This document shows, piece by piece, positions 28 through 54,712 of a stretch of DNA of 57,079 bases. Position 1 is the first letter of the stretch. The number at the start of each line of letters is the position of its first letter. The stretch is from an uncultured Chlorobiaceae bacterium. GTDB taxonomy: Bacteria > Bacteroidota > Chlorobiia > Chlorobiales > Chlorobiaceae. The DNA is taken from NCBI GenBank assembly GCA_903939765.1, contig CAJAIK010000016.1, forward strand, positions 1-57,079, in the 5' to 3' direction. The notes beneath the pieces were generated by a model, which saw only the letters and a list, made by a program, of their open reading frames with translations, was not told the origin of the DNA and ran no database searches. The translations under genes and the position numbers were made by a program.

Positions 28-3000
28 GTCGCGCCCCCCGCGGGCGCGTGGATTGAAACTCCCGGCCCATATCTGCTTGGGTAGCTGGAGACAGTCGCGC
101 CCCCCGCGGGCGCGTGGATTGAAACACATCCTCCTGAACGATGAACCTCGCAACACGGCCGTCGCGCCCCCCGCGGGCGCGTGGATTGAAACTACAAGCT
201 CATAGACAAAGCTGCAGAAATAGGCGGTCGCGCCCCCCGCGGGCGCGTGGATTGAAACGCATTGAGCGACCAAGTCAATAAGATCGCCCCAGTCGCGCCC
301 CCCGCGGGCGCGTGGATTGAAACAGTTTGTGCCTGCAAAAGATCACGCTGAGCAGATAGTCGCGCCCCCCGCGGGCGCGTGGATTGAAACATTTTAACAG
401 ATACTCAATCGAAAGAAACTTAGGAGTCGCGCCCCCCGCGGGCGCGTGGATTGAAACGTCACACCTTTGAACTTCTCGAACGTGCGCATTCGTCGCGCCC
501 CCCGCGGGCGCGTGGATTGAAACACCTTCCGGGCAAAAACCGAACAGATTTATAAGGCAGTCGCGCCCCCCGCGGGCGCGTGGATTGAAACGCTGATCGT
601 CCGTGGCGCTGAATCAGATACACGAGTCGCGCCCCCCGCGGGCGCGTGGATTGAAACGGCAGTGCTCCGAAAAAGGTCCAATGATCCAGATGGTCGCGCC
701 CCCCGCGGGCGCGTGGATTGAAACCCGTTGACGGCCTCGCCCCTATAACGACAAGATTGTCGCGCCCCCCGCGGGCGCGTGGATTGAAACGCTGCTACTT
801 CACTTTTTGCCCGCAACTCAGCAGGTCGCGCCCCCCGCGGGCGCGTGGATTGAAACGCTCGTGCCGATGGGTCGTAATTAAAACCCTTCCGTCGCGCCCC
901 CCGCGGGCGCGTGGATTGAAACTCAAGAACTCCGGGTCAATCACGTAAGCCGGGGAAGTCGCGCCCCCCGCGGGCGCGTGGATTGAAACCCAATAACCTT
1001 ACCGTTAAACGCCTCCCACTTGCAGTCGCGCCCCCCGCAGGCGCGTGGATTGAAACATCGTCCAAATCATCATATGAGCAAGCTGAAGAAGGTCGCGCCC
1101 CCCGCGGGCGCGTGGATTGAAACACTCTGAGTGGTCGCTGTGTGACCCTGCATCGTGGGTCGCGCCCCCCGCGGGCGCGTGGATTGAAACTGGATCGTCT
1201 GCTCCAAAAGGAGAATCTGCAGCAGTCGCGCCCCCCGCGGGCGCGTGGATTGAAACTGCAAATTCTCGTCCCGGAAACACTCATTATATAGTCGCGCCCC
1301 CCGCAGGCGCGTGGATTGAAACGACAAGCTCGGCATCACCCAGCTCACCCCCTACCGGTCGCGCCCCCCGCGGGCGCGTGGATTGAAACTTGTAGCGCCA
1401 GGACTTCCCCGACTTCCTACCGAGGTCGCGCCCCCCGCGGGCGCGTGGATTGAAACCGATCATTTCGGAAACAAAGGTCTCGATAGCTCCGTCGCGCCCC
1501 CCGCGGGCGCGTGGATTGAAACGACTCCTCAATCAAGGACCCGCATGACTCGCAAGGTCGCGCCCCCTGCGGGCGCGTGGATTGAAACGCTTACCAGTGT
1601 CCCGATAGGTGCATCGATCAGCGCGTCGCGCCCCCCGCGGGCGCGTGGATTGAAACACGATATAGTGTATTTGCATCATCAAAGTACGCTGTCGCGCCCC
1701 CCGCGGGCGCGTGGATTGAAACCACTCACCGAACGCGACGTTGTCCTCGATGATGAGTCGCGCCCCCCGCGGGCGCGTGGATTGAAACAATCTGTTCGTG
1801 TTGCATGACTCACTTATCCCGGTCGTCGCGCCCCCCGCGGGCGCGTGGATTGAAACGAGTTTGATGTGGTTGAGAGGTAGCTTTGGTACGTCGCGCCCCC
1901 TGCGGGCGCGTGGATTGAAACGTTTTCCTCGTCCGCTGCCGGCGCGACAATCTCGGTCGCGCCCCCCGCGGGCGCGTGGATTGAAACAACCTGTGGAGGG
2001 CAATGGCCCGTTTAAGCAGCGGTCGCGCCCCCCGCAGGCGCGTGGATTGAAACTTAAAGAGAAAAGGTCGGTTGATGCAATCATAACTAGTCGCGCCCCC
2101 CGCGGGCGCGTGGATTGAAACGAGACATCGAGCCACGAATAGTCCACCTTCACAACGTCGCGCCCCCCGCGGGCGCGTGGATTGAAACTTCCGGAAGTTT
2201 TTTGTCTCGACAACTTCGACGTCGTCGCGCACCCCGCGGGCGCGTGGATTGAAACCCCCTGCAGGGCGTCGGTATAGGTGATCTGCAGGGTCGCGCCCCC
2301 CGCGGGCGCGTGGATTGAAACGGGGACAACATCGATAACGTCGTACCAGGTCCCTCCGTCGCGCCCCCTGCGGGCGCGTGGATTGAAACACTGAGATCGG
2401 TAAAAAGTTAAACCGAAAAAAAGATGTCGCGCCCCCCGCGGGCGCGTGGATTGAAACTAAGGTTATTAATATGCGGGTAATGGTGAGCAAGTAGTCGCGC
2501 CCCCCGCGGGCGCGTGGATTGAAACGAGATGCCAAGGACATGTGCTGCCTCTCGTGGGCTGTCGCGCCCCCCGCGGGCGCGTGGATTGAAACGTGCAGCG
2601 CTGGCACATCCGCCCCTCGTCGGTGTCGCGCCCCCCGCGGGCGCGTGGATTGAAACGTGCTGCATGACTCACCTATCCCGCCTCCAATGGTCGCGCCCCC
2701 CGCGGGCGCGTGGATTGAAACGGCCAGTCGCGACCGTGAGTTGAAATCAATCATAGTCGCGCCCCCCGCGGGCGCGTGGATTGAAACCTGTCGGTCAGGG
2801 AACTTGTAAACCATGCCGGGGTCGCGCCCCCCGCGGGCGCGTGGATTGAAACCTGACTTATAAAGTCAACATCCAGAAAACGAAAAGTCGCGCCCCCCGC
2901 GGGCGCGTGGATTGAAACGCACTCCTAACGGGCAACTCCGAACGCACCATAAAGTCGCGCCCCCCGCGGGCGCGTGGATTGAAACGGATCACGCCGCAAT

Positions 3001-4914
3001 CCGCCAATTGCAAAAGAGTGTCGCGCCCCCCGCGGGCGCGTGGATTGAAACATAATTGTTGCTCCAATTTACGGATTAGCAGGTTGTCGCGCCCCCCGCG
3101 GGCGCGTGGATTGAAACGTTCCCGCTTCTCAAATTCTCCGGCGGAGATGCTGTCGCGCCCCCCGCGGGCGCGTGGATTGAAACAGCTACATCAAACCAAA
3201 GTTCGAGATCCCGGAGAGTCGCGCCCCCCGCGGGCGCGTGGATTGAAACTTTCAATGCGGTGAGTATGGGTCAAAACACGGTAGGTCGCGCCCCCCGCGG
3301 GCGCGTGGATTGAAACTGATCGTCATGGACGTGCTGGCCGCAGCGGTTTAGTCGCGCCCCCCGCGGGCGCGTGGATTGAAACTGGTACTGCTGCGGAATA
3401 TCCCGGTAACAAACCAGGTCGCGCCCCCCGCGGGCGCGTGGATTGAAACTTGCTGGGCTTGGCATTCCGCTCGTCAAGCCGGAGGTCGCGCCCCCTGCGG
3501 GCGCGTGGATTGAAACGTCCCTAATCCACTCATTATATATGAGGTTATAGGGTCGCGCCCCCCGCGGGCGCGTGGATTGAAACTTCGCATACTGGACAAT
3601 CTCAGCATACGTCAGCGGTCGCGCCCCCCGCGGGCGCGTGGATTGAAACCATTGTGAGTCTGGTTTTTGGTGCACGAGTGAACGTCGCGCCCCCCGCGGG
3701 CGCGTGGATTGAAACAACTGGCCCAAAGTTATTGGCTGACCAAAAAACAGGTCGCGCCCCCCGCGGGCGCGTGGATTGAAACCGGAGTCTGTTGATGTGT
3801 TGTCGTCTGGCTCTTGGTCGCGCCCCCTGCGGGCGCGTGGATTGAAACTCCGCTTTATAAGCCTCTCTGTAAGCCGCACTCGTCGCGCCCCCTGCGGGCG
3901 CGTGGATTGAAACATACCAGTGTGCTCCATCTCGATCTCAGCGCTATGTCGCGCCCCCCGCGGGCGCGTGGATTGAAACTTTTTGGCTTTTGTCTTTGGT
4001 GGCAGTCTTGCTGAGGTCGCGCCCCCCGCGGGCGCGTGGATTGAAACAAAGCCCTCCCTCACTCCTGACCTGCTTAAAACGCGTCGCGCCCCCTGCGGGC
4101 GCGTGGATTGAAACACGTTTGATTCTGTAGATATTGCTGATGTCGTTATGTCGCGCCCCCCGCGGGCGCGTGGATTGAAACTGTCTTGCGCATCGATCCA
4201 AATGTACCATTTTCGTCGCGCCCCCCGCGGGCGCGTGGATTGAAACAGTAATGGCGCAGACCACTTTCTGAAAATGTGGGATGTCGCGCCCCCCGCGGGC
4301 GCGTGGATTGAAACTGCCGATCAATTTGCGCTTCTCAGTGCATTGATTGTCGCGCCCCCCGCAGGCGCGTGGATTGAAACAATAATTTTTGTTTCTTCTG
4401 TTTGGCACGCACCAGGTCGCGCCCCCCGCGGGCGCGTGGATTGAAACACAACCGCTCAGCAAGACTGCCACCAAAGATAACAACGTCGCGCCCCCCGCGG
4501 GCGCGTGGATTGAAACTGTTCTCGCCGGCCTGAACAGGGCGGCAACCGTGGTCGCGCCCCCCGCGGGCGCGTGGATTGAAACGCGGGCTTTATCTGTACC
4601 CTCTGAACCCCATCTGTCGCGCCCCCCGCGGGCGCGTGGATTGAAACTTTACCGCTGCAGCCTGCAATGCCAGAGCGTCACGTCGCGCCCCCTGCGGGCG
4701 CGTGGATTGAAACAAAGACTCGTGCAGCATCGGCTCTGGTGTGTACCGGTCGCGCCCCCCGCGGGCGCGTGGATTGAAACGGCGTTGCCGTGGCCTCAAA
4801 AAGGTCCGTCGGTCGTCGCGCCCCCCGCGGGCGCGTGGATTGAAACTCGTAAATCACGCCGGTCTTTCCGGGCTCACCGTGGGTCGCGCCCCCCGCGGGC
4901 GCGTGGATTGAAAC
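28..4914 (+). CRISPR. Type I-C-like CRISPR array, 74 repeats
   Basis: A 32-bp repeat beginning GTCGCGCCCC and ending GTGGATTGAAAC recurs 74 times every 65-69 bp, with 73 complete unique spacers of 32-37 nt. Bases 1-27 are the end of one more spacer, so the array continues off the left edge. The repeat holds a GC-rich inverted repeat (GCGCCC/GGGCGC), and the ATTGAAAC end would form the crRNA 5' handle. This fits type I-C repeats and gives + strand transcription with the leader to the left, outside the window. Thirteen repeats carry a single substitution in or beside the loop. Eight are C to T (1557, 1890, 2358, 3485, 3817, 3882, 4083, 4682), four are G to A (1025, 1291, 2022, 4349) and one is C to A (2224). 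The last repeat is intact. No cas gene lies in the window, so the subtype rests on the repeat alone. Confidence 0.98.
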
Positions 4915-46578: not shown

Positions 46579-46612
46579 TGTTTCTTGATTGATAACGTAT
46601 AAAAAAATTATT

Positions 46613-46864
46613 ATGAGCACTGTTACCGTAAACGTCTCTTTTCAGGACTCATTGCTGAATGAAATTGACAAAACAGCCAAAAAGGAGTATCGAAGCCGTT
46701 CAGAATTGATAAGGGAGGCTGCGAGACTTTATATCCAGCGCCAGAGTCAGTGGAATGATCTGTTTCAGCTTGGCGATACGGTAGCCCGGAAGCAGCAGTT
46801 GACAGAGCATGATGTTGTAGCGGAGATTGCGGCTCTCCGTACAGCAAAAACCAAGTTGTCGTGA
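46613..46864 (+). CDS. Ribbon-helix-helix antitoxin
   Basis: An 83-residue CopG/RHH-family protein. The N-terminal strand VTVNVSFQDSLLNEIDKTAKKEYRSRSELIREAARLYIQRQ is the complete RHH DNA-binding unit. The C-terminal half is a charged helix likely to wrap the toxin. I start at the ATG at 46613, eight codons inside the longest frame, because RHH proteins begin close to the strand. Its stop overlaps the toxin GTG start by 4 bp. It should neutralise the toxin and repress the operon. Confidence 0.85.
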   Translation: MSTVTVNVSFQDSLLNEIDKTAKKEYRSRSELIREAARLYIQRQSQWNDLFQLGDTVARKQQLTEHDVVAEIAALRTAKTKLS

Positions 46865-47262
46865 AAATTGTATGCGATACCAATGTCCTTGTTTCCGGCA
46901 TTCTCTTCGGTGGAAATCCAAGGGAAATCTTGCGACTTTGTTCTGCTGGCAAGGTGATCAACTTCATCTCTCCTGAAATGATGCTGGAGGTGGTAGATGT
47001 TCTGCAACGACCAAAGTTTGGTCTGCTTCCTGAACAGGTTTACCGGATTTTAGGGCTCTTCATGGACACATTTACCTTGATTACTCCACTCATTTCAGTT
47101 CATGACATCACTGCTGATCCCGATGATAACAGGATTCTTGAGGCGGCTTATACTGCTGAGGCAGAGGTAATTGTTTCTGGTGACAACCATTTGCTTGAGC
47201 TGCTCTCATGGAGGGGTATTGCGGTTCTTGCTCCTGCTGATTTTCTGAAAAGATGGTTATGA
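46861..47262 (+). CDS. PIN-domain ribonuclease toxin
   Basis: A 133-residue PIN-domain protein of the COG1569 type. Catalytic acidic residues appear in VCDTNVLVSGILF (Asp6), SPEMMLEVVDVLQRPKF (Glu), ADPDDNRILEAA (Asp pair) and the distal VSGDNHLLEL (Asp). It should be a metal-dependent RNase inhibited by the RHH antitoxin. It starts with GTG overlapping the antitoxin stop (GTGA), the usual coupling. Confidence 0.85.
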   Translation: MKIVCDTNVLVSGILFGGNPREILRLCSAGKVINFISPEMMLEVVDVLQRPKFGLLPEQVYRILGLFMDTFTLITPLISVHDITADPDDNRILEAAYTAEAEVIVSGDNHLLELLSWRGIAVLAPADFLKRWL

Positions 47263-47321
47263 GAGGAGATTCCAAACAAGGGTATAACCGCATTTTTTGT
47301 TCGTAGATTAAAGGGAAAGAG

Positions 47322-47522
47322 ATGAAAATTACTGTTGACAAGGCAACTGATTCGCTTTGTTTTTGGCTTGACGAAAAGAAAATAGTCGAATCTGAAGAAA
47401 TCAGGCCGGGTGTGATTCTTGATTATGATGAAAACAATGTCGTTATAGGCGTAGAGTTTCTCAACGTCTCGTCAAGAAAAACAAAAGAGGATTTATCCAA
47501 CATGCAGTTTCAGACAGCGTAA
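47322..47522 (+). CDS. DUF2283-family protein
   Basis: A 66-residue DUF2283 protein. The pattern MKITVDKATDSLCFWL, then SEEIRPGVILDYDENNVVIGVEFLNVS, is characteristic. DUF2283 genes are often found near toxin genes and suspected to be antitoxins, although no mechanism is established. It lies 59 bp after the PIN gene and may belong to the same mobile module. Confidence 0.8.
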   Translation: MKITVDKATDSLCFWLDEKKIVESEEIRPGVILDYDENNVVIGVEFLNVSSRKTKEDLSNMQFQTA

Positions 47523-47534
47523 GAATCAGGCATA

Positions 47535-47597
47535 AAAAAAGAGTGCCCACAGCCTTCGAAGAGGCTATCCGGCTCTCTTCTACCAACAGCAGGCACC
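47535..47597 (-). terminator. Possible terminator of the DGR transcript
   Basis: Reading the minus strand, GTGCC (47597-47593) and GGCAC (47548-47544) can close a long stem. It encloses AGCCTCTTCGAAGGCT, and a run of T follows (47541-47535). It lies 86 bp beyond the TR and would end an RT-TR transcript. The outer pairing is short, so the call is tentative. Confidence 0.35.
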
Positions 47598-47665
47598 CGG
47601 TCAATGGACTTTTTGCCCTTGCCACTTACAGGGTCAGGGTCATCAATCTGTTCAACGGCAGCCAT

Positions 47666-47683
47666 CCGGCTTTACTCTTGAGC
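47666..47683. repeat. 18-nt inverted repeat, TR-side copy
   Basis: CCGGCTTTACTCTTGAGC abuts the TR 3' end. Its exact reverse complement is at 49424-49441, just beyond the VR. The similarity extends imperfectly a further ~10 nt (CTGCC block on both sides). It is not part of the TR/VR alignment. Confidence 0.9.
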
Positions 47684-47814
47684 TACGGGACGAACACAAG
47701 GCGGAAGCCAACGTTGCTGTTACGGTTGCCAGGGGTGTTGTTGTTGCGATAAGCCGACCGGCAATTCTCGGCATTGTTGTTCCAGCTCCCGCCGCGAAGA
47801 ACACGGTTCGAACC
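47683..47814 (-). repeat. DGR template repeat (TR)
   Basis: 132 bp aligned without gaps to the VR at 49460-49591 (offset exactly 1,777). Read on the minus strand, the TR has 11 AAY codons where the VR differs: GSN, W-NNN, AEN, R-NNN, GN, RN and SN. Seventeen of 19 differences replace a TR adenine (a T on the + strand). The other two (47695 and 47698 on the + strand) lie near the 3' end and are synonymous. The TR begins 17 bp after the RT stop codon, so it is downstream of RT in the transcript. It ends at the copy of the target stop codon. Confidence 0.97.
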
Positions 47815-47831
47815 CACGATTGATGCCCTCG

Positions 47832-48836
47832 TTACTCCTTTTCGTCCATTACGGAATTATACACATTTTTTCTGAACTCCACAGCATCAGCATACTCCGT
47901 AAAGGCCACCAAAGGCATGACATGGTTTGCATACTCCTGTTGTGACCATCGACCTGTTTGGAGATAATCGGCATAAAGAACCGATTTCCGGATAAACCTT
48001 TTTTTGCTCTGCTGCGTCATCCGTACCCTGCATGGAAACAACAAATAGCCCAAAAAAGGCAACCCTTTATCGGGGCTGTTCAAACAAAACGGCTTGAACA
48101 AAAGCTTCAACTCTGTTGCCGCAAACTCCTGCAACCGCCCCCCCGCTTCAAGCAAGATATCCCTGTCATTATGCCACAACACCATATCGTCCATATACCG
48201 AACGTACGCCGGTATACACAACTCCTCCTTGATCCAGTGATCGGCCCTCGACAGATAATGATTGGCAAAATACTGGCTTGTCAAATTCCCGATAGGCACA
48301 CTTTTCTGTGCTGTGGTTGTATAGCTGTCAATGATTTTTTCAAACATCACAAGGAGATGTTTTTGGCTGAAAAGTCGGTGCAGTTGTGCCTTCAAAACAA
48401 CATGATCAATGCTCTCAAAATACTTGCGCACATCAAGTTTCAAAAACCATCCGTAGTGGCGGTGGTACGCTCTGGCCGTATCAAGAGCCGCATAGGTGCC
48501 CTTTCCGATACGACTGGCAAAACTGTTTTCGATCTGCTGTTTTTCAAACGCATCGTGACAGACATTCATCAACGCATGATGCAACACCCGCTGTGAAAAT
48601 GGAGCCGCACAAATCAACCGTTTTTTGGGATCGTAGACCGTGAAGTAATGATAGTGCCCCGTTTCGATTGCCCCGGAACGTAGCTGCTGCTGAAGGAGCT
48701 GCAAATTTTCATGCAACCGCTGCCTGTAGGCAATAACTTCCTGATCAAAAACTTTTCCTTTTTGAGCTTTGTAAAAAGCTTCATAGAGGTTGTTGAGATC
48801 AAGTATCTTCTCAAACAGCCGTCCCTGTCGCTTCAT
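47832..48836 (-). CDS. DGR reverse transcriptase
   Basis: A 334-residue reverse transcriptase. RT motifs are in order: [25 protein letters not shown] (motifs 1-2), [14 protein letters not shown] with the first catalytic Asp (134-140), [14 protein letters not shown] (180-192) and [11 protein letters not shown] with the YMDD box (214-217). The IGNLTSQ wording replaces the QGxxxSP of group II intron RTs and is a hallmark of diversity-generating retroelements. There is no maturase or endonuclease domain. I chose the ATG at 48836, overlapping the HRDC gene by 26 bp; a longer frame upstream is the shadow of that gene. The enzyme copies the TR RNA with errors at adenine. Confidence 0.95.
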
Positions 48837-49275
48837 TGGTTTCGGATTTTTCTGTAAAATACCGGGCAAACCGTTCCACTTTTTTTTCACCAATACCTTT
48901 GATACCCAACATATTCTTTTCCGTGATCGCTTCAAGTCTGGCAAGAGCCGCCAGTTCTTCATCGGTAAAAATAATGAATGCCGAAACCCCCTCCTCGGCG
49001 GCCGCTTTTTTGCGTTTTTCACGCAATGCGGAAAATTTATGAAATGTTGGCTCATCGAGCACTTTCCGGTAATCAACCCTTGCTTTGTGATCCGCACCTG
49101 ACGGATTGGCCTCCAACTCCACATAGCGCACACAAAAACACCAGCAGGCACTGTGTTTATTACTGATAAGCCGGTTTTCAACGTCAAGCACTTTGTTTGC
49201 TTTCAGAAAGGTGTTCAGCTCCTGCCCGGCAGCATCACTGTCACCGACAGGAATGGTAAAAAATTTGATTTGCAT
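48811..49275 (-). CDS. HRDC-domain DGR accessory protein
   Basis: A 154-residue protein. The N-terminal ~70 residues are a mixed alpha/beta segment (MQIKFFTIPVGDSDAAGQEL, CWCFCVRYVELEAN) also seen in RecQ-linked HRDC accessory proteins. The C-terminal ~80 residues form an HRDC domain (DYRKVLDEPTFHKFSALREKR, IIFTDEELAALARL, NMLGIKGIGEKKVERFA). HRDC proteins occur in some DGRs in place of the usual Avd accessory protein and could bind the RT or nucleic acid. It ends inside the RT gene start, so the two are coupled. An AAGGA lies just before the ATG at 49275. Confidence 0.88.
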   Translation of the reverse strand: MQIKFFTIPVGDSDAAGQELNTFLKANKVLDVENRLISNKHSACWCFCVRYVELEANPSGADHKARVDYRKVLDEPTFHKFSALREKRKKAAAEEGVSAFIIFTDEELAALARLEAITEKNMLGIKGIGEKKVERFARYFTEKSETNEATGTAV

Positions 49276-49304
49276 CCTTTTTTGCTCTTCATCTGGCTAT
49301 GCAT

Positions 49305-49332
49305 TAAAAAAAGCTGGCCGCCACAGGGCGGC
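49305..49332 (-). terminator. Terminator after the diversified gene
   Basis: On the minus strand GCCGCC (49332-49327) and GGCGGC (49322-49317) form a tight stem with a 4-nt loop, followed after four bases by a run of T (49312-49306). It separates the target gene from the HRDC-RT pair. Confidence 0.75.
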
Positions 49333-49349
49333 ATTTTCTGTTGTCGGTG

Positions 49350-49414
49350 GTTACCGCCAACTTGTGGTGCACAGCAGCGCTCCGCTTGCTGCCGTTCACC
49401 ACAAGTTTGGTAAC
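49350..49414. repeat. Long interrupted hairpin downstream of the VR
   Basis: GTTACC (49350-49355) pairs with GGTAAC (49409-49414), AACTTGTGGTG (49359-49369) with CACCACAAGTT (49397-49407), and GCAGC (49374-49378) with GCTGC (49388-49392). Small bulges separate the three stems. It lies 46 bp beyond the target stop codon. A hairpin or cruciform after the VR promotes retrohoming in characterised DGRs. Confidence 0.75.
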
Positions 49415-49423
49415 TGCTCTCTT

Positions 49424-49441
49424 GCTCAAGAGTAAAGCCGG
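49424..49441. repeat. 18-nt inverted repeat, VR-side copy
   Basis: GCTCAAGAGTAAAGCCGG is the exact reverse complement of 47666-47683 beside the TR. It also overlaps a local palindrome CTCTTG-CT-CAAGAG at 49419-49432. Confidence 0.9.
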
Positions 49442-49459
49442 AATGAACTGCCCATTAAA

Positions 49460-49591
49460 CTACGGGACGAAGACCAGGCGGAAGCCAACGTCGCTGTCAC
49501 GGGAGCCAGGGGTGCGGTTGCGGCGATAAGCCGACCGGCAAGACTCGGCAAGGCAGTACCAGCTCCCGCCGCGAAGAACACGGGGCGAACC
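49460..49591 (-). repeat. DGR variable repeat (VR)
   Basis: The last 43 codons plus stop of the target gene. Against the TR, ten of eleven AAY codons have changed amino acid, giving P; Y, C and L; S; R and R; S; D and D at the variable positions. One (the middle of the second NNN) is still Asn. The fixed frame RGGSW...CRSAYR...VGFRLVFVP is the C-type-lectin core of the FGE domain, so the variable residues map to its binding face. Confidence 0.97.
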
Positions 49592-51955
49592 TGTTTCAGG
49601 GCCCTTTGGATCTTTGACCACCCCTTTGCTCTTGCACTCCTTGTAATAGTCACTCACGAACCAGTCATTGCACCACTCCCACACATTGCCATGCATGTTA
49701 TACAATCCCCAATTGTTTGGTTCAAAACTCTCAACAGCAACAGTCTTCTCCCGATACTCCCCTTTCGGGTTCCCGTTATAAGGATAATTTCCATTGTAAT
49801 TTGCCTGCTCCGTTGTCAGGTTTTCTCCCGTGCTGAATGGTGTTGTTGTGCCTGCCCGGCACGCATACTCCCACTCCGCTTCCGTGGGTAACCGGTATGT
49901 TTTACCGGTTTTTTTTGAGCACCATTCACCGTAAGCAACCGCATCATCCCATGATACCCCGACCACAGGATAATGGTCACCTGTCAATGCGTTTCCAAAC
50001 TTTTTATAATAATCATTGCTCCCTGTCTCAATGTTATACTCACTTCCCACTTCCAGCCATTCCGGATAATGGCTCTCTGTCTGCCGGGCAAACTGCAAAT
50101 ACTCCCCAACCGTCACCGCATGCCTGCACATCCAGAAGTCACTCACCTCTACCTCATGCAGGGTTTCATCATCACTTCTACTCACCTCCGTTTCCGGACT
50201 TCCCATACTGAACCGACCTCCACGAATGTGAACAAAAGTCGCTGACACCTTGCTTTTGTTTCGGAGCTGGTCGGGATCAACACCGAGACGTTGCAGCAGG
50301 TGATCGGGTATGTCAAAATAGATTGGGCTCAGGTCGCGCTGGTTGATGACGTGCAGGGTAACAATGTCGGGCAAGGATCGACTCCTGGCGAGAAGCTCAT
50401 TTACTTTTTTCGCTTTCTCTGTCGCAAGATCCCTGTCGGGCTCCGCAAGCAAATCGTAGACGGCAAGTTGCAGACTTCGGCCTGCATGGTCGGAGTCACC
50501 TTCGAGCGGGATGTTCTGGCTGAGCTGCTCGTAGAGAAAGCGGCAAACGGCGTTAAACTCGCTCCTCGTCAGCCACGTTTCATTCTCGAGCAGCTCACGG
50601 CGGCACCGGTCGGGTATGCGGCCAAGACGGAACCACTCCAGCCGCAAAAGCTGACTGAGCTGCCGGTAGGAGTTGAGCGATGCTCCCGGCTCTTCGGGAT
50701 ACCACTCACCTAACATCTTTCCAAGGGCAAGGGTCAGGTTCCAGTTCAGTTCCGGATAGATGGCGCACGCAGCAATCCATCGCTTGACTGGTTCCCGGAA
50801 AAAGAGTCCGATAAAGTCGAGTGTCTTGTCTTCGGTGCGTACCGGAACGAGGGTGTAGTCTACACTTTCCTGCCAGTATTTAAGCTTGTCAAACTCTGTC
50901 GCCACACCTTGCGACAGGTCAGCCGCCACAACCTGCAATCCCTCAACCGACATGGGCAACACAAAGGGAAAAAGCTCCTGCAACAGCCGTTCACGCTCTC
51001 CCCACAGTGCCGGTGAAACCGGGGTAAAAAAATAGCGATGCTGCCAGTGCCGGAACATCTCTGTCCAGTCAAACCGCCTGACCTCCCAGGTATCAATATA
51101 TTGCAGGCCATCGGTAAACATCATCAATGCCGCGTGCTCGTACTGGCTCAGCAGCTCCGTCAGGGCAATACCGCCTGGGTATCGCTCGTTTCGGCAGAGC
51201 ATAGGGGAGTTATCGAAATAGAATCGCTCAACAAAAATATTGTTCCCCCTGAGAGTTTCGTAGATGGTGTTGTAAAGGTGCGCCTGATGGTCACGCGAAT
51301 TGTGCCGGTCGATCAGCATCAGGTACTCGATATGGCGCAGCCTTGGTGCGTAAATTGGCCTCAGCATCCCTCCTGCATGAGCTGCTGCTTTCCGGATGGT
51401 TTTATCGATAGCAAAGAATTGCCTCCCGGAACTGGTGGTGTAACGGAGTTGGCGCACCACCTTGACCATACGGGGCTCGCTTGCCATCTCCGTCGTTGCC
51501 ACAAAGCGCTCAATCGAGGGAGATCCACTTCTCTGACGCGATTTCAGCGAGGCGACAATCCGTTCTTCATCTTGCAGAAAGGATTGCGCTTCAGAAGTGT
51601 TTGAACTGCCTGCTTCGGGCGATGGAGTTGGCTCAGGCTGAATCGCTCCACCAGACTTCGACACTTGCTTCTCCGCTGCTGCTGGCGACCGCTTCTCGAC
51701 AAGGGGAATGATCAGCCGCTTGTAGAGTTCAAGAAATGTCGCCTGCTGTTCTGGTGAGTGGGCGACGACCGGGCAAAGCCACTGATCGAGCCGCTCCAGG
51801 TCGCCTGCATCAATGGCTTTGATCAGCACGTAATGGAGCATTTCACAGGTATCGACACCAAAGCTGAACCCTTGCTCCCGCAAAAGCCCGAACAGCTCAT
51901 CGAAGGGGAAGTGATGATTGGCGGAAATATATGCCTTGGTTTCTCCCATCGTCAT
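49460..51955 (-). CDS. DGR target: vWA-like/FGE (SUMF1) protein
   Basis: An 831-residue protein. Residues 1-85 resemble the N-terminus of MoxR-partner/CoxE-type proteins (HFPFDELFGLLREQGFSFGVDT...SPEQQATFLELYKRLI). A Pro/Ser-rich linker follows (about 95-125). Residues about 205-330 look like a vWA domain with a degenerate metal site (EYLMLIDRHNSRDHQAHLY, then MMFTDG). A helical middle leads to an FGE/SUMF1 domain from about 569 (FVHIRGGRFSMGSPETE, RLPTEAEWEYACRAG, NMHGNVWEWCNDW). The VR is residues 789-831. The ATG overlaps the MoxR stop by 4 bp. I infer a diversified recognition protein worked by the MoxR ATPase. FGE enzyme activity is unlikely because the domain belongs to the lectin-fold DGR target class. 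Confidence 0.9.
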   Translation of the reverse strand: MTMGETKAYISANHHFPFDELFGLLREQGFSFGVDTCEMLHYVLIKAIDAGDLERLDQWLCPVVAHSPEQQATFLELYKRLIIPLVEKRSPAAAEKQVSKSGGAIQPEPTPSPEAGSSNTSEAQSFLQDEERIVASLKSRQRSGSPSIERFVATTEMASEPRMVKVVRQLRYTTSSGRQFFAIDKTIRKAAAHAGGMLRPIYAPRLRHIEYLMLIDRHNSRDHQAHLYNTIYETLRGNNIFVERFYFDNSPMLCRNERYPGGIALTELLSQYEHAALMMFTDGLQYIDTWEVRRFDWTEMFRHWQHRYFFTPVSPALWGERERLLQELFPFVLPMSVEGLQVVAADLSQGVATEFDKLKYWQESVDYTLVPVRTEDKTLDFIGLFFREPVKRWIAACAIYPELNWNLTLALGKMLGEWYPEEPGASLNSYRQLSQLLRLEWFRLGRIPDRCRRELLENETWLTRSEFNAVCRFLYEQLSQNIPLEGDSDHAGRSLQLAVYDLLAEPDRDLATEKAKKVNELLARSRSLPDIVTLHVINQRDLSPIYFDIPDHLLQRLGVDPDQLRNKSKVSATFVHIRGGRFSMGSPETEVSRSDDETLHEVEVSDFWMCRHAVTVGEYLQFARQTESHYPEWLEVGSEYNIETGSNDYYKKFGNALTGDHYPVVGVSWDDAVAYGEWCSKKTGKTYRLPTEAEWEYACRAGTTTPFSTGENLTTEQANYNGNYPYNGNPKGEYREKTVAVESFEPNNWGLYNMHGNVWEWCNDWFVSDYYKECKSKGVVKDPKGPETGSPRVLRGGSWYCLAESCRSAYRRNRTPGSRDSDVGFRLVFVP

Positions 51956-52947
51956 CCTTTGAGCTTGTGCTTTTCTATTGCATCGACAACGACTTTCAGG
52001 TCTGACTCCTCCTTGGCAAGAATCGACATCCCGCTCAAAAGCGTCGCGGCATTGGCGGATATGCTGCTGAAACAGGTCAGCTCTTCAACATTGAACTTGT
52101 TCTCTTGCATCCACCATATCCAGAGAATCAGCTCATGGGTAGCTGGTTTTTTGCCGGTAACAAGGTCACTGATCTCTAAAAAGAGGTCGATGAATTTTGT
52201 GGCGCTCTCTTCATCAAGTTTGCGCAGAATCCGCTTTTTTTTGAGAAGAATCTTCATGAGCTGCTCTTTGTCGGGCATGTCGATATGAAAATAGACGCAG
52301 CGACGCAGAAAGGGTTCCGGCAGAGTTTTTTCGGAGTTGCTGGTCAGAATTACTACCGGCTTGTAAGCCTCTTCACCTTCTTTCCTGTAAAACGAGGAAT
52401 CGGTCTCTTTTGCCGATTTCAGCTCCGGCACATCAAAGCTCATGGATTCAATAATCGAGAGGATATCATTGGGCAAATCACGCGGCGCTTTGTCGATTTC
52501 GTCGATCAATACCACCCTGCGTCTCGGTTTCTTTTCTTTGTTTTGCCCAATCGAGTCACAGATTGCCTGCCCAAGCGCCTCATAGTGAATATAGTTATCT
52601 TGAATCTCCGAGGCTTTCAGTTCACAGGCACTTCCCTTTTCAATATTCACCTTGTGAAAATGGGCAAGGCTGTCGTAGCGGTAGAGCAGATCGGTTGACA
52701 CCGAATCGGTTCGTGTAGGAAAAGGCAAGACATCCCCCCATCCAAAACGTTCGGCGATATGGTACGCAAGGTCCGACTTGCCGGTACCCGGCACACCGGT
52801 CACCAACAGCGGCTTCTGCAGCATCAGCGCAACATTCAACGCCCTGACCAGCCCCTCCGAAGGCATGTACCCTTCACCCCGCTCTATCTTCGGCAACTGC
52901 ACCGCTGCGTTCACCACCTTGTTCTCGTAAAAGTTGTATTGTTCCAT
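51952..52947 (-). CDS. MoxR-type AAA+ ATPase
   Basis: A 331-residue AAA+ ATPase of the MoxR/CbbQ group. Walker A is GVPGTGKSD (about 52-60), Walker B VVLIDEIDKAPRDLPND, sensor 1 ILTSNSEKTLPEPFLRRC. The segment between them holds the typical LPFPTRTDSVSTDLLYRYDSLAHFH insert. MoxR ATPases remodel a vWA-containing partner, which here is the overlapping downstream gene. GAGG lies 7 nt before the ATG. In MoxR-vWA conflict systems the ATPase cycle is thought to gate effector release. Confidence 0.92.
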   Translation of the reverse strand: MEQYNFYENKVVNAAVQLPKIERGEGYMPSEGLVRALNVALMLQKPLLVTGVPGTGKSDLAYHIAERFGWGDVLPFPTRTDSVSTDLLYRYDSLAHFHKVNIEKGSACELKASEIQDNYIHYEALGQAICDSIGQNKEKKPRRRVVLIDEIDKAPRDLPNDILSIIESMSFDVPELKSAKETDSSFYRKEGEEAYKPVVILTSNSEKTLPEPFLRRCVYFHIDMPDKEQLMKILLKKKRILRKLDEESATKFIDLFLEISDLVTGKKPATHELILWIWWMQENKFNVEELTCFSSISANAATLLSGMSILAKEESDLKVVVDAIEKHKLKG

Positions 52948-52968
52948 TTATGTGCCTCAAGCTTTAAG

Positions 52969-53895
52969 TTACTTTTGACAAAACTTTAATTTTTCCACTG
53001 CATCACGATAGCTCATGACTGAAAGACCTGCCAGCAGACCAGGGTCATAGCTGTAACAATCGTCATAGTGGTCACAAAAATCACCAAGATCATCCGGACT
53101 TATATTTTCATATTCGTCCGTATACAAGCAAATGCAATTGTCCGGCAGGCTGACTTTTGGTCGCACTTTTATTTTCAGATGAATAAATAGATAGAGGGGA
53201 GTTTCAAGCCCTAATGACTCCCAAAGTTTAAGGTATTCACCTATCAACAATGCGTTATATTTCTCAACTGAATGAACAACAAAATAGATTTCCGTTTGAT
53301 TTCTTTTTCTTTTGAACTGGTCATAAATACCAGAAAGATTTTCATTCAGTTTAAAATGAAAATTCATAAAATCAACCCAGCCAGATCGCATAATTTCCAT
53401 TGAATCAAAATAAATATAATCTAAAAGGTAGTCACCCTTAAGATTAGCCGGATTTTGTTGTTGAGTGTCTTGACGGCAATAATGCACATGTAAAATCTCC
53501 GGGATTTTATTTGAAAATGCCAGCCTGTCATGTTCAATCATGATCACATTCAGCTTATGTTCTTTCCAACGAAGTACATCAAATTTATGCTTTATTTTTT
53601 TATGATCCAGATGACACCATTTTTTATCAGGATCATCTTTATAATTACCATTTTCAGTTTTTTCATTTTTATTATCTGCTATACACGAAGAGACAAGAGT
53701 TCTGAGCCTGTCGATCCATTTAAGCATTTCTATCACATGAATTCCTGCAATAAACTCCTGCTTTAACTGTTTGAATAAAAACAGATTGTCGCGATTCAAT
53801 GATAATTGCCCAGCACAGCGCAATGCCTCACCAAGAGTCGTTGGATCGTCAAGCAGGTCGAGAATTCTTTGAATAAGAATATTACTTGTATCCAT
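52969..53895 (-). CDS. Adaptor-like protein with effector-associated module
   Basis: A 308-residue protein I cannot assign to a named family. Residues 7-68 (IQRILDLLDDPTTLGEAL, FIAGIHVIEMLKWIDRLR) are clearly homologous to the C-terminal module of the upstream TIR protein. The rest (about 90-308) is a mixed alpha/beta domain with several hydrophobic strands (LNVIMIEHDRL, TEIYFVVHSVEKYNALLIG, TPLYLFIHLKIKV). It could be an inactive NTPase-like (iSTAND-like) domain, but no P-loop is present. The start overlaps the TIR gene stop by 14 bp and it ends 21 bp before moxR. Probable role: adaptor that links TIR effector and MoxR-vWA sensor by like-with-like binding. Confidence 0.65.
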   Translation of the reverse strand: MDTSNILIQRILDLLDDPTTLGEALRCAGQLSLNRDNLFLFKQLKQEFIAGIHVIEMLKWIDRLRTLVSSCIADNKNEKTENGNYKDDPDKKWCHLDHKKIKHKFDVLRWKEHKLNVIMIEHDRLAFSNKIPEILHVHYCRQDTQQQNPANLKGDYLLDYIYFDSMEIMRSGWVDFMNFHFKLNENLSGIYDQFKRKRNQTEIYFVVHSVEKYNALLIGEYLKLWESLGLETPLYLFIHLKIKVRPKVSLPDNCICLYTDEYENISPDDLGDFCDHYDDCYSYDPGLLAGLSVMSYRDAVEKLKFCQK

Positions 53896-54481
53896 AAAGA
53901 AAAATTTTTAATTGATCAATCCATTCAAGTTTTTCATGATTAGCCATACCGGCAATAAATCGCTGCCGCTTATCGTTAAAAGTATAACGGTCACGACCTC
54001 TGAATGGTATTGTTTCCGCCTCCCTCAAAGCATCAGGAATGGTCGCCGGATCGTCAAGCATATCAATAATTTTCTGAACAGGGATTTTTGACTTGATAGC
54101 TTCGATACATTTCAGAAATTCAGGATGAGAACGGTCACCGTTCCAGCCAAAAAGATCGGCATACTGGATAAACTCAAATACCGACGGCGGATCAACATCA
54201 TCAAGACGTAAAGCCACAAGAATTCCTTTTTCTTTTCCCGCATCAGCTTCCTTTTTCACCCATTCATGGTTATCAAGATCAACCGACTCACAAGTCCAGA
54301 CAACCAGCACGCACCGTGATGAATCGAGTGCTCGCTGGATTTCGTCAGGCCATGTAACACCCGGCAAAAAAGCTCTCTTGTCGATAATGGGCCGCCACCC
54401 ATGCTCTTCAAGGGCGGTCACAATGGGTTCAACCCTGGCAAGATCTTTACGGGCATAACTGATAAAAATATCCTTGATCAT
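53882..54481 (-). CDS. TIR-domain effector with C-terminal EAD-like module
   Basis: A 199-residue protein. Residues 1-125 are a TIR domain (DIFISYARKDLARVEPIVTALEEHGWRPIID...WPDEIQRAL). The putative catalytic Glu78 lies in NHEWVKKEADAG, as in NAD-cleaving bacterial TIRs. Residues 134-195 (VQKIIDMLDDPATIPDALREA, FIAGMANHEKLEWIDQLK) repeat the module found in the next gene, consistent with an effector-associated domain. I start at the ATG at 54481, four codons inside a TTG alternative. The 3' end overlaps the adaptor-like gene by 14 bp. Expected action: NAD+ depletion or signal production when released. Confidence 0.85.
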   Translation of the reverse strand: MIKDIFISYARKDLARVEPIVTALEEHGWRPIIDKRAFLPGVTWPDEIQRALDSSRCVLVVWTCESVDLDNHEWVKKEADAGKEKGILVALRLDDVDPPSVFEFIQYADLFGWNGDRSHPEFLKCIEAIKSKIPVQKIIDMLDDPATIPDALREAETIPFRGRDRYTFNDKRQRFIAGMANHEKLEWIDQLKIFLYGYK

Positions 54482-54712
54482 ACCTTTACGCAATTAATTA
54501 TGAAGAGTCAAAAATATGCAATACTGAAATAGACATTCGATTTCACCGCCCTCAGATTGCTCTATACAAAAAAGTATTTATTATTATAACACCTAATACT
54601 TAAAAGCATTTTTCCTAAAATATTTAGCTTTAAGTATAATGCACTTACTATACAAGCAACTGAGTATTCAAGCATATCTGCGAATAACTCTATTTAATTA
54701 CAATAAATACAG

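Follow-up and report, generated by a model that had tools for sequence, protein, structure and literature searches.

Why does the sequence that abuts the template repeat (TR) of a retroelement recur, as an exact reverse complement, just beyond the variable repeat (VR) of its target gene? This question bears on how the cDNA of a diversity-generating retroelement (DGR) finds its VR, how the TR is spared, and what is done by the IMH, which is already known in DGRs. The exact process of DGR integration "remains unknown" (PMC12875486). Here, we analysed a window of 57,079 nt, which is the whole stretch of contig CAJAIK010000016.1 from an uncultured Chlorobiaceae bacterium.

ORF analysis and profile searches located on the minus strand of the window a target gene, VR, hairpin, HRDC accessory gene, reverse transcriptase (RT) and TR, which is the full gene set of a DGR, and by its sequence the locus is a DGR of the HRDC type. 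The target gene (49460-51955, minus strand) encodes 831 amino acids, and its C-terminal FGE-sulfatase (CLec-type) domain (residues 573-828; PF03781, E = 2e-59) bears the VR, which is thus found at the 3' end of a CLec-type-fold gene. Alignment of the VR (49460-49591) and the TR (47683-47814), both on the minus strand, defined a common repeat of 132 nt with 19 mismatches, including 17 at TR adenines and two elsewhere. The HRDC-domain accessory gene (48811-49275, minus strand; 154 amino acids; PF00570, E = 5e-14) is overlapped by the listed RT frame (47832-49187, minus strand; PF00078, E = 5e-13), which as the longest frame has 451 amino acids. The RT adjoins the repeats, and its translation carries the sequence IGNLTSQ, which fits the DGR-type motif [ILV]GxxxSQ. 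Its true start is probably located further inside this frame, because the aligned N-terminal part contains stops in many relatives and the listed start is therefore placed too early.

On the 3' side of the VR, where DGRs classically have their target hairpin, there is a hairpin or cruciform (49359-49407) with 20-nt arms (49359-49378 and 49388-49407), which are 90% complementary and enclose a 9-nt loop. Other VRs of the HRDC lineage seem to have similarly long target hairpins. A G+C-rich inverted repeat followed by a T run (47533-47578, minus strand) probably acts as an intrinsic terminator for the TR RNA, as judged from its sequence and fold. No group II intron ribozyme RNA was found around the RT, with Rfam matches in 47000-50500 being at chance level and none of them to a group II intron, and rRNA, sRNA or other Rfam families were rejected as the identity of the region on the basis of chance matches only. 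Beside the target gene (window 51952-54493) there are genes for an AAA ATPase, a further protein and a TIR-domain protein, and the target is probably part of a cassette of the conflict type, such as DGRs diversify in multicellular bacteria. An RHH (copG)/PIN-domain toxin-antitoxin pair is located directly downstream of the DGR (window 46589-47262).

The original prediction for this locus described a perfect inverted repeat of 18 nt joining the 3' flanks of the TR and VR, with its second arm 18 nt past the VR. The repeat is real and its second arm does follow the VR, but the perfect match comprises 19 nt (47665-47683 and 49424-49442, 100% complementary) and the second arm is placed 17 nt beyond the final VR base. 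The 19-mer has no other mismatch-free copy anywhere in the 2.98 Mb assembly, and the G at 47683 is the last base common to the TR and VR. Imperfect similarity beyond the repeat had also been noticed, and strict local complementarity, which was scored in place of thermodynamic duplexes since these overextend with wide windows, bears this out: TR positions +0..+33 pair with VR positions +0..+36 with small bulges, forming an antiparallel complement of about 34 × 37 nt. The VR flank complementary to the TR spacer is referred to here as X (GTTTAATGGGCAGTTCATTCCGGCTTTACTCTTGAGC; 49424-49460, minus strand, with the perfect 19-nt core at 49424-49442), and the spacer tag of the TR RNA as X' (GCTCAAGAGTAAAGCCGGATGGCTGCCGTTGAAC; 47650-47683, minus strand). 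X and X' both start at the last base common to the TR and VR, and X' ends at a GAAC motif (47650-47653, minus strand) that pairs at the VR boundary. A small spacer hairpin, AGCC-GGAT-GGCT (47660-47671, minus strand), is located inside X'. The X/X' duplex has an energy of −54.4 kcal/mol compared to −20.1 ± 3.1 kcal/mol with shuffled VR flanks. Self-folding of the TR transcript was rejected as the cause of the repeat, because the transcript shows no unusually stable fold (its stability is not above that of shuffles, z = −0.59).

The flanks were then compared between related elements, with RT relatives taken from whole genomes and their TRs and VRs found de novo by adenine-specific mismatches. 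The sampled loci came from Chlorobi, Saprospiraceae, Bacteroidales, and MAGs labelled Caldithrix and Pontiellaceae. Pairing with z < −3 against shuffled VR flanks was observed in 60 of 75 TR/VR pairs, and the median duplex energy of these 75 pairs was −43.7 kcal/mol for a locus with its own partner and −28.4 kcal/mol for cross-locus combinations. The complement is kept in loci with changed letters, as exemplified by L110 (GCTCGTATAGAATAGTCGGAGGACATC with GATGTTTTCTGACTATTCTATATGAGC) and L105 (GCTCATAAGTCAGGC with GCCTGACTTATGAGC). Columns 5-12 form an ungapped core, in which Watson-Crick pairs fill 367 of 456 cells, versus 179 ± 10 with permuted partners (maximum 215 in 1000 permutations), and the cores scored include 39 different sequences. 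The RT tree, built from 46 loci, places 83 TR-side changes in the eight core columns, and 53 of these changes are matched on the same branch by a compensatory double change from one Watson-Crick pair to another; controls with slid columns gave 0-4 double changes, and 11 at one offset. Covariation of the two flanks across phyla is thus strong with relatedness controlled by the RT tree, and the abundance of compensatory changes in related DGRs indicates that the pairing is under selection. Such changes had been named as the test for this repeat, and they also support the earlier suggestion that it guides the TR RNA to the VR. Little or no pairing beyond chance was seen in some loci (part of L112, L121 and L125).

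The long X accompanies the HRDC-type lineage, with an HRDC-like accessory match in 76 of 80 lineage loci versus none of 163 DGR loci outside it, from viruses or phages. No long X was found in the remaining phage lineages, and no signal extended further out than the VR edge there. Other DGR lineages gave a weak signal at the VR boundary (5.89 versus 5.51 ± 0.14, p about 0.009), so the pairing rule may not be general. No viral relative was found in searches with the window RT or with a crAss RT. A second Chlorobi RT lineage, about 40% identical (L042-L048), has the spacer TTTCAAGGAA and the VR flank TTCCTGAA in L042, L043, L044 and L046, which perhaps represent another short spacer/VR match; this match is absent from L048.

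The pairing in the HRDC lineage has two arms, including a TR-adjacent arm (GCTCA...) and a GAAC-ending arm, which pairs with the first bases after the VR. In 42 of 47 distinct spacers, a hairpin with a GGA loop and a stem of 3 bp or more, whose sequence varies, stands between them. Pairing begins at the TR boundary, and in most loci its VR end coincides with the VR boundary or falls close to it, where GAAC, AAAC or GACC is found at +30..+34 of the spacer. The TR-adjacent end shows the best-conserved pairing (57 of 57 Watson-Crick at two columns), and the VR-boundary arm taken alone scored 6.93 versus 5.17 ± 0.17 for permuted partners (maximum 5.78 in 5000). The two arms can also vary separately. 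TR-adjacent pairing is reduced to a few pairs in L036 and L037, and is absent from L089 and L126, both of which keep the VR-edge arm (in L089, TGCAGGTAAAC:GTTTACCTGCA). As read by eye, X is shortened in L121, L123, L125 and L127 with both of its edges still able to pair with the two arms, and in L102 the two arms, which still match X, are set apart by additional spacer sequence.

The source assembly contains TRs of this lineage on three contigs, C16 (the window), C87 and C116, and these TRs have three different cores and tags. Each of the seven VRs (7/7) pairs best with its cognate TR, that is, the TR that matches its non-adenine positions. The chance for this result at one in three each is 1 in 2187, with the VRs of one TR not being fully independent. 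Two of the seven tagged VRs are located on C55 and C27, contigs on which no TR was found, and three repeat-like sequences of the same assembly, which are not VRs of these TRs, are without X. Among VRs with a common TR, wobble changes or an additional T are seen. The C116 cassette (G000:C116:9928-12412, L130) is an orphan DGR with a tagged TR, two VRs and an RT relic of 33 codons, which corresponds to the C-terminal part of the protein. The VRs on C55 and C27 match the C116 TR with 0-5 non-A mismatches. Because C116 keeps the tag and has only an RT relic, an RT would be needed in trans, as the matching VRs on the other two contigs also suggest.

A comparable arrangement was met in the family of the Bordetella phage BPP-1. 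In the BPP-1 DGR, the cDNA is started on an adenosine within the spacer, producing a covalent RNA-cDNA hybrid. This priming by a spacer adenosine has been reported together with an Okazaki-like hybrid intermediate proposed by Naorem et al., and editing was better where the cDNA-complementary strand is the lagging-strand template (PMC12875486). In BPP-1-family loci (L141, positions 2743-3020 and 3443-3576, and L142-L204) with the spacer GTGGTCAG, the heptamer TGACCAC, an exact complement of the spacer segment GTGGTCA, is present in 34 of 39 VRs and in none of 39 TRs (chance per locus ~0.003). A first count over 9 nt (19 in favour of the VR, 22 ties and none in favour of the TR) was blurred by variable outer bases, whereas the invariant 7-mer is clear. 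GTGGTCA ends at spacer A56, which together with TR G117 we take to be the published priming pair. Among five starts tried in BPP-1 itself, only 117 (TR G117 on spacer A56) gives a hybrid contiguous with the VR antisense strand. Thus, spacer RNA matching the target antisense strand at the 3' edge of the VR is found both in the window lineage and in the BPP-1 family. The VR-specific bases of the IMH look like a site for the RNA primer, and the heptamer match could explain the difference between IMH and IMH*. The core of the BPP-1 VR is nearly invariant and so shows no covariation.

We consider it fairly probable that X' is an address that anchors the RNA-cDNA hybrid at X on the sense strand, at the 3' edge of the cognate VR. 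If cDNA synthesis proceeds as in BPP-1, the cDNA would start at the GAAC end of X', within 1-2 nt, and the hybrid would read 5'-X'(RNA)-cDNA-3', which corresponds to the target antisense strand rc(X)-rc(VR) in one piece. Much as the RNA of an Okazaki fragment pairs with its template, X' would anneal at X, where the sense strand is exposed, and would thereby fix the 5' end of the cDNA at the 3' edge of the VR, where the cDNA could pass from its template onto the VR. The data show the complement with its precise position, its covariation over several phyla and the cognate preference in a single genome; we infer the sense DNA as the partner strand, the hybrid as the active molecule, its timing and the priming site. 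The address would direct the cDNA preferentially to the cognate VR, and the TR would be protected from rewriting because it has no X. The lagging-strand-template preference (PMC12875486) is expected from annealing of X' to an exposed sense strand. As a counterpoint, a simple model with a primer adjacent to the cDNA would stress the VR-adjacent end of the pairing, yet the TR-adjacent end is the best conserved.

The strength of the TR-adjacent arm would fit a pure guide, in which the tag recruits the complex of RT and TR RNA through RNA:DNA pairing, as in EBS-IBS interactions, and the RNA-cDNA junction has no role. Covariation and cognate specificity are explained equally well by such a guide, but on its own it accounts neither for a complement that starts at the VR boundary nor for the same junction match in BPP-1, and we regard it as unlikely. 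Conservation of the TR-adjacent pairs, together with the start of X' exactly at the last TR base, would also be expected from target-primed reverse transcription, which was once considered for BPP-1 (PMC3240598). In this scheme, nicking of the sense strand directly after ...TGAGC would yield a 3'-OH base-paired to the spacer exactly at the 3' terminus of the TR, from which the cDNA would be primed. However, L089 and L126 retain pairing at the VR boundary without TR-adjacent pairs, L036 and L037 have only a few of them, and BPP-1 is primed by its spacer adenosine. Direct priming by the VR-side strand, as raised in the original prediction, is thus disfavoured, and we give it a low probability.

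Because X follows the stop codon on the sense strand, the target mRNA could also pair with the TR RNA through its 3' UTR, either with the TR RNA as an antisense regulator or with the mRNA used as a partner. This would give no reason for a complement abutting the VR so exactly, and in BPP-1 the pairing site is in the VR end itself and a DNA hairpin beside the VR is needed in the target (PMC3240598), which makes pairing with the mRNA very improbable. The near-perfect arms of many loci might suggest a functionless complement, produced by copying of the spacer into the VR flank as a by-product of conversion or by an old inversion. However, X keeps bases of its own that are unlike rc(X') and recur across loci, and the wobble changes and extra T among VRs of one TR are not expected from copying, whereas a local inversion cannot account for the tagged VRs of C55 and C27, whose contigs yielded no TR. 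The last observation, together with compensatory evolution of the pair, ruled out an inversion or duplication scar, including the old inversion proposed previously, and a functionless complement in any form is the least probable of these explanations. The address that anchors the hybrid at X remains the reading we prefer.

The use of HRDC proteins as DGR accessories (PMC4891356, PMC10053308) and the target hairpin (PMC3240598) are already known. Complementary TR and VR flanks were not encountered in a term search of DGR surveys and reviews, with key papers (Naorem 2017, Handa 2018, 2021 and 2025) lying beyond its scope, and within these sources the repeat is outside the usual DGR description, as had been predicted. 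It is plausible, and we propose it tentatively, that a general rule applies, whereby the RNA part of the hybrid is complementary to DNA at the VR 3' edge and not to the TR, with 9 nt in BPP-1 and an evolvable address of ~34 nt in HRDC-type DGRs that sorts several TRs among several VRs of one cell. If true, this rule would explain the IMH/IMH* difference in BPP-1, and the HRDC-type address could be reprogrammed. Given a covarying address of ~34 nt, a DGR could perhaps be retargeted by altering a short RNA tag together with the complementary DNA, and tag complementarity provides a sequence rule for assigning TRs to remote VRs in genomes with multiple cassettes.

Among known systems, group II introns resemble this locus in that a retroelement RNA pairs with target DNA beside a hairpin (EBS-IBS pairing; the IIC introns, with a target hairpin, are discussed in PMC3240598), and their RTs are related to those of DGRs. 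Unlike these introns, the DGR has no intron ribozyme or reverse splicing, and its cDNA replaces a homologous repeat and is not inserted. The overlapping RT and HRDC accessory genes are like those of other HRDC-type DGRs, such as that of Treponema denticola (PMC4891356). IMH-like 3' ends have been described for this type, and a term search of the text of that paper found no complementary or inverted flanks. With BPP-1, the window DGR shares the TR, VR, RT, a spacer 3' of the TR and a hairpin 3' of the VR, although both stem and loop of the window hairpin exceed the 7-10 bp stems and 4-nt GRNA loops of phage DGRs (PMC3240598). The accessory protein is an HRDC protein, whereas BPP-1 uses Avd, and the locus is therefore classified as a DGR rather than as BPP-1-type. 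In BPP-1, likewise, the VR (IMH), and not the TR (IMH*), has the complement of a spacer segment that ends at the priming adenosine. The BPP-1 match is 9 nt long and lies inside the VR, whereas in the window lineage it covers ~34 nt and lies outside the VR.
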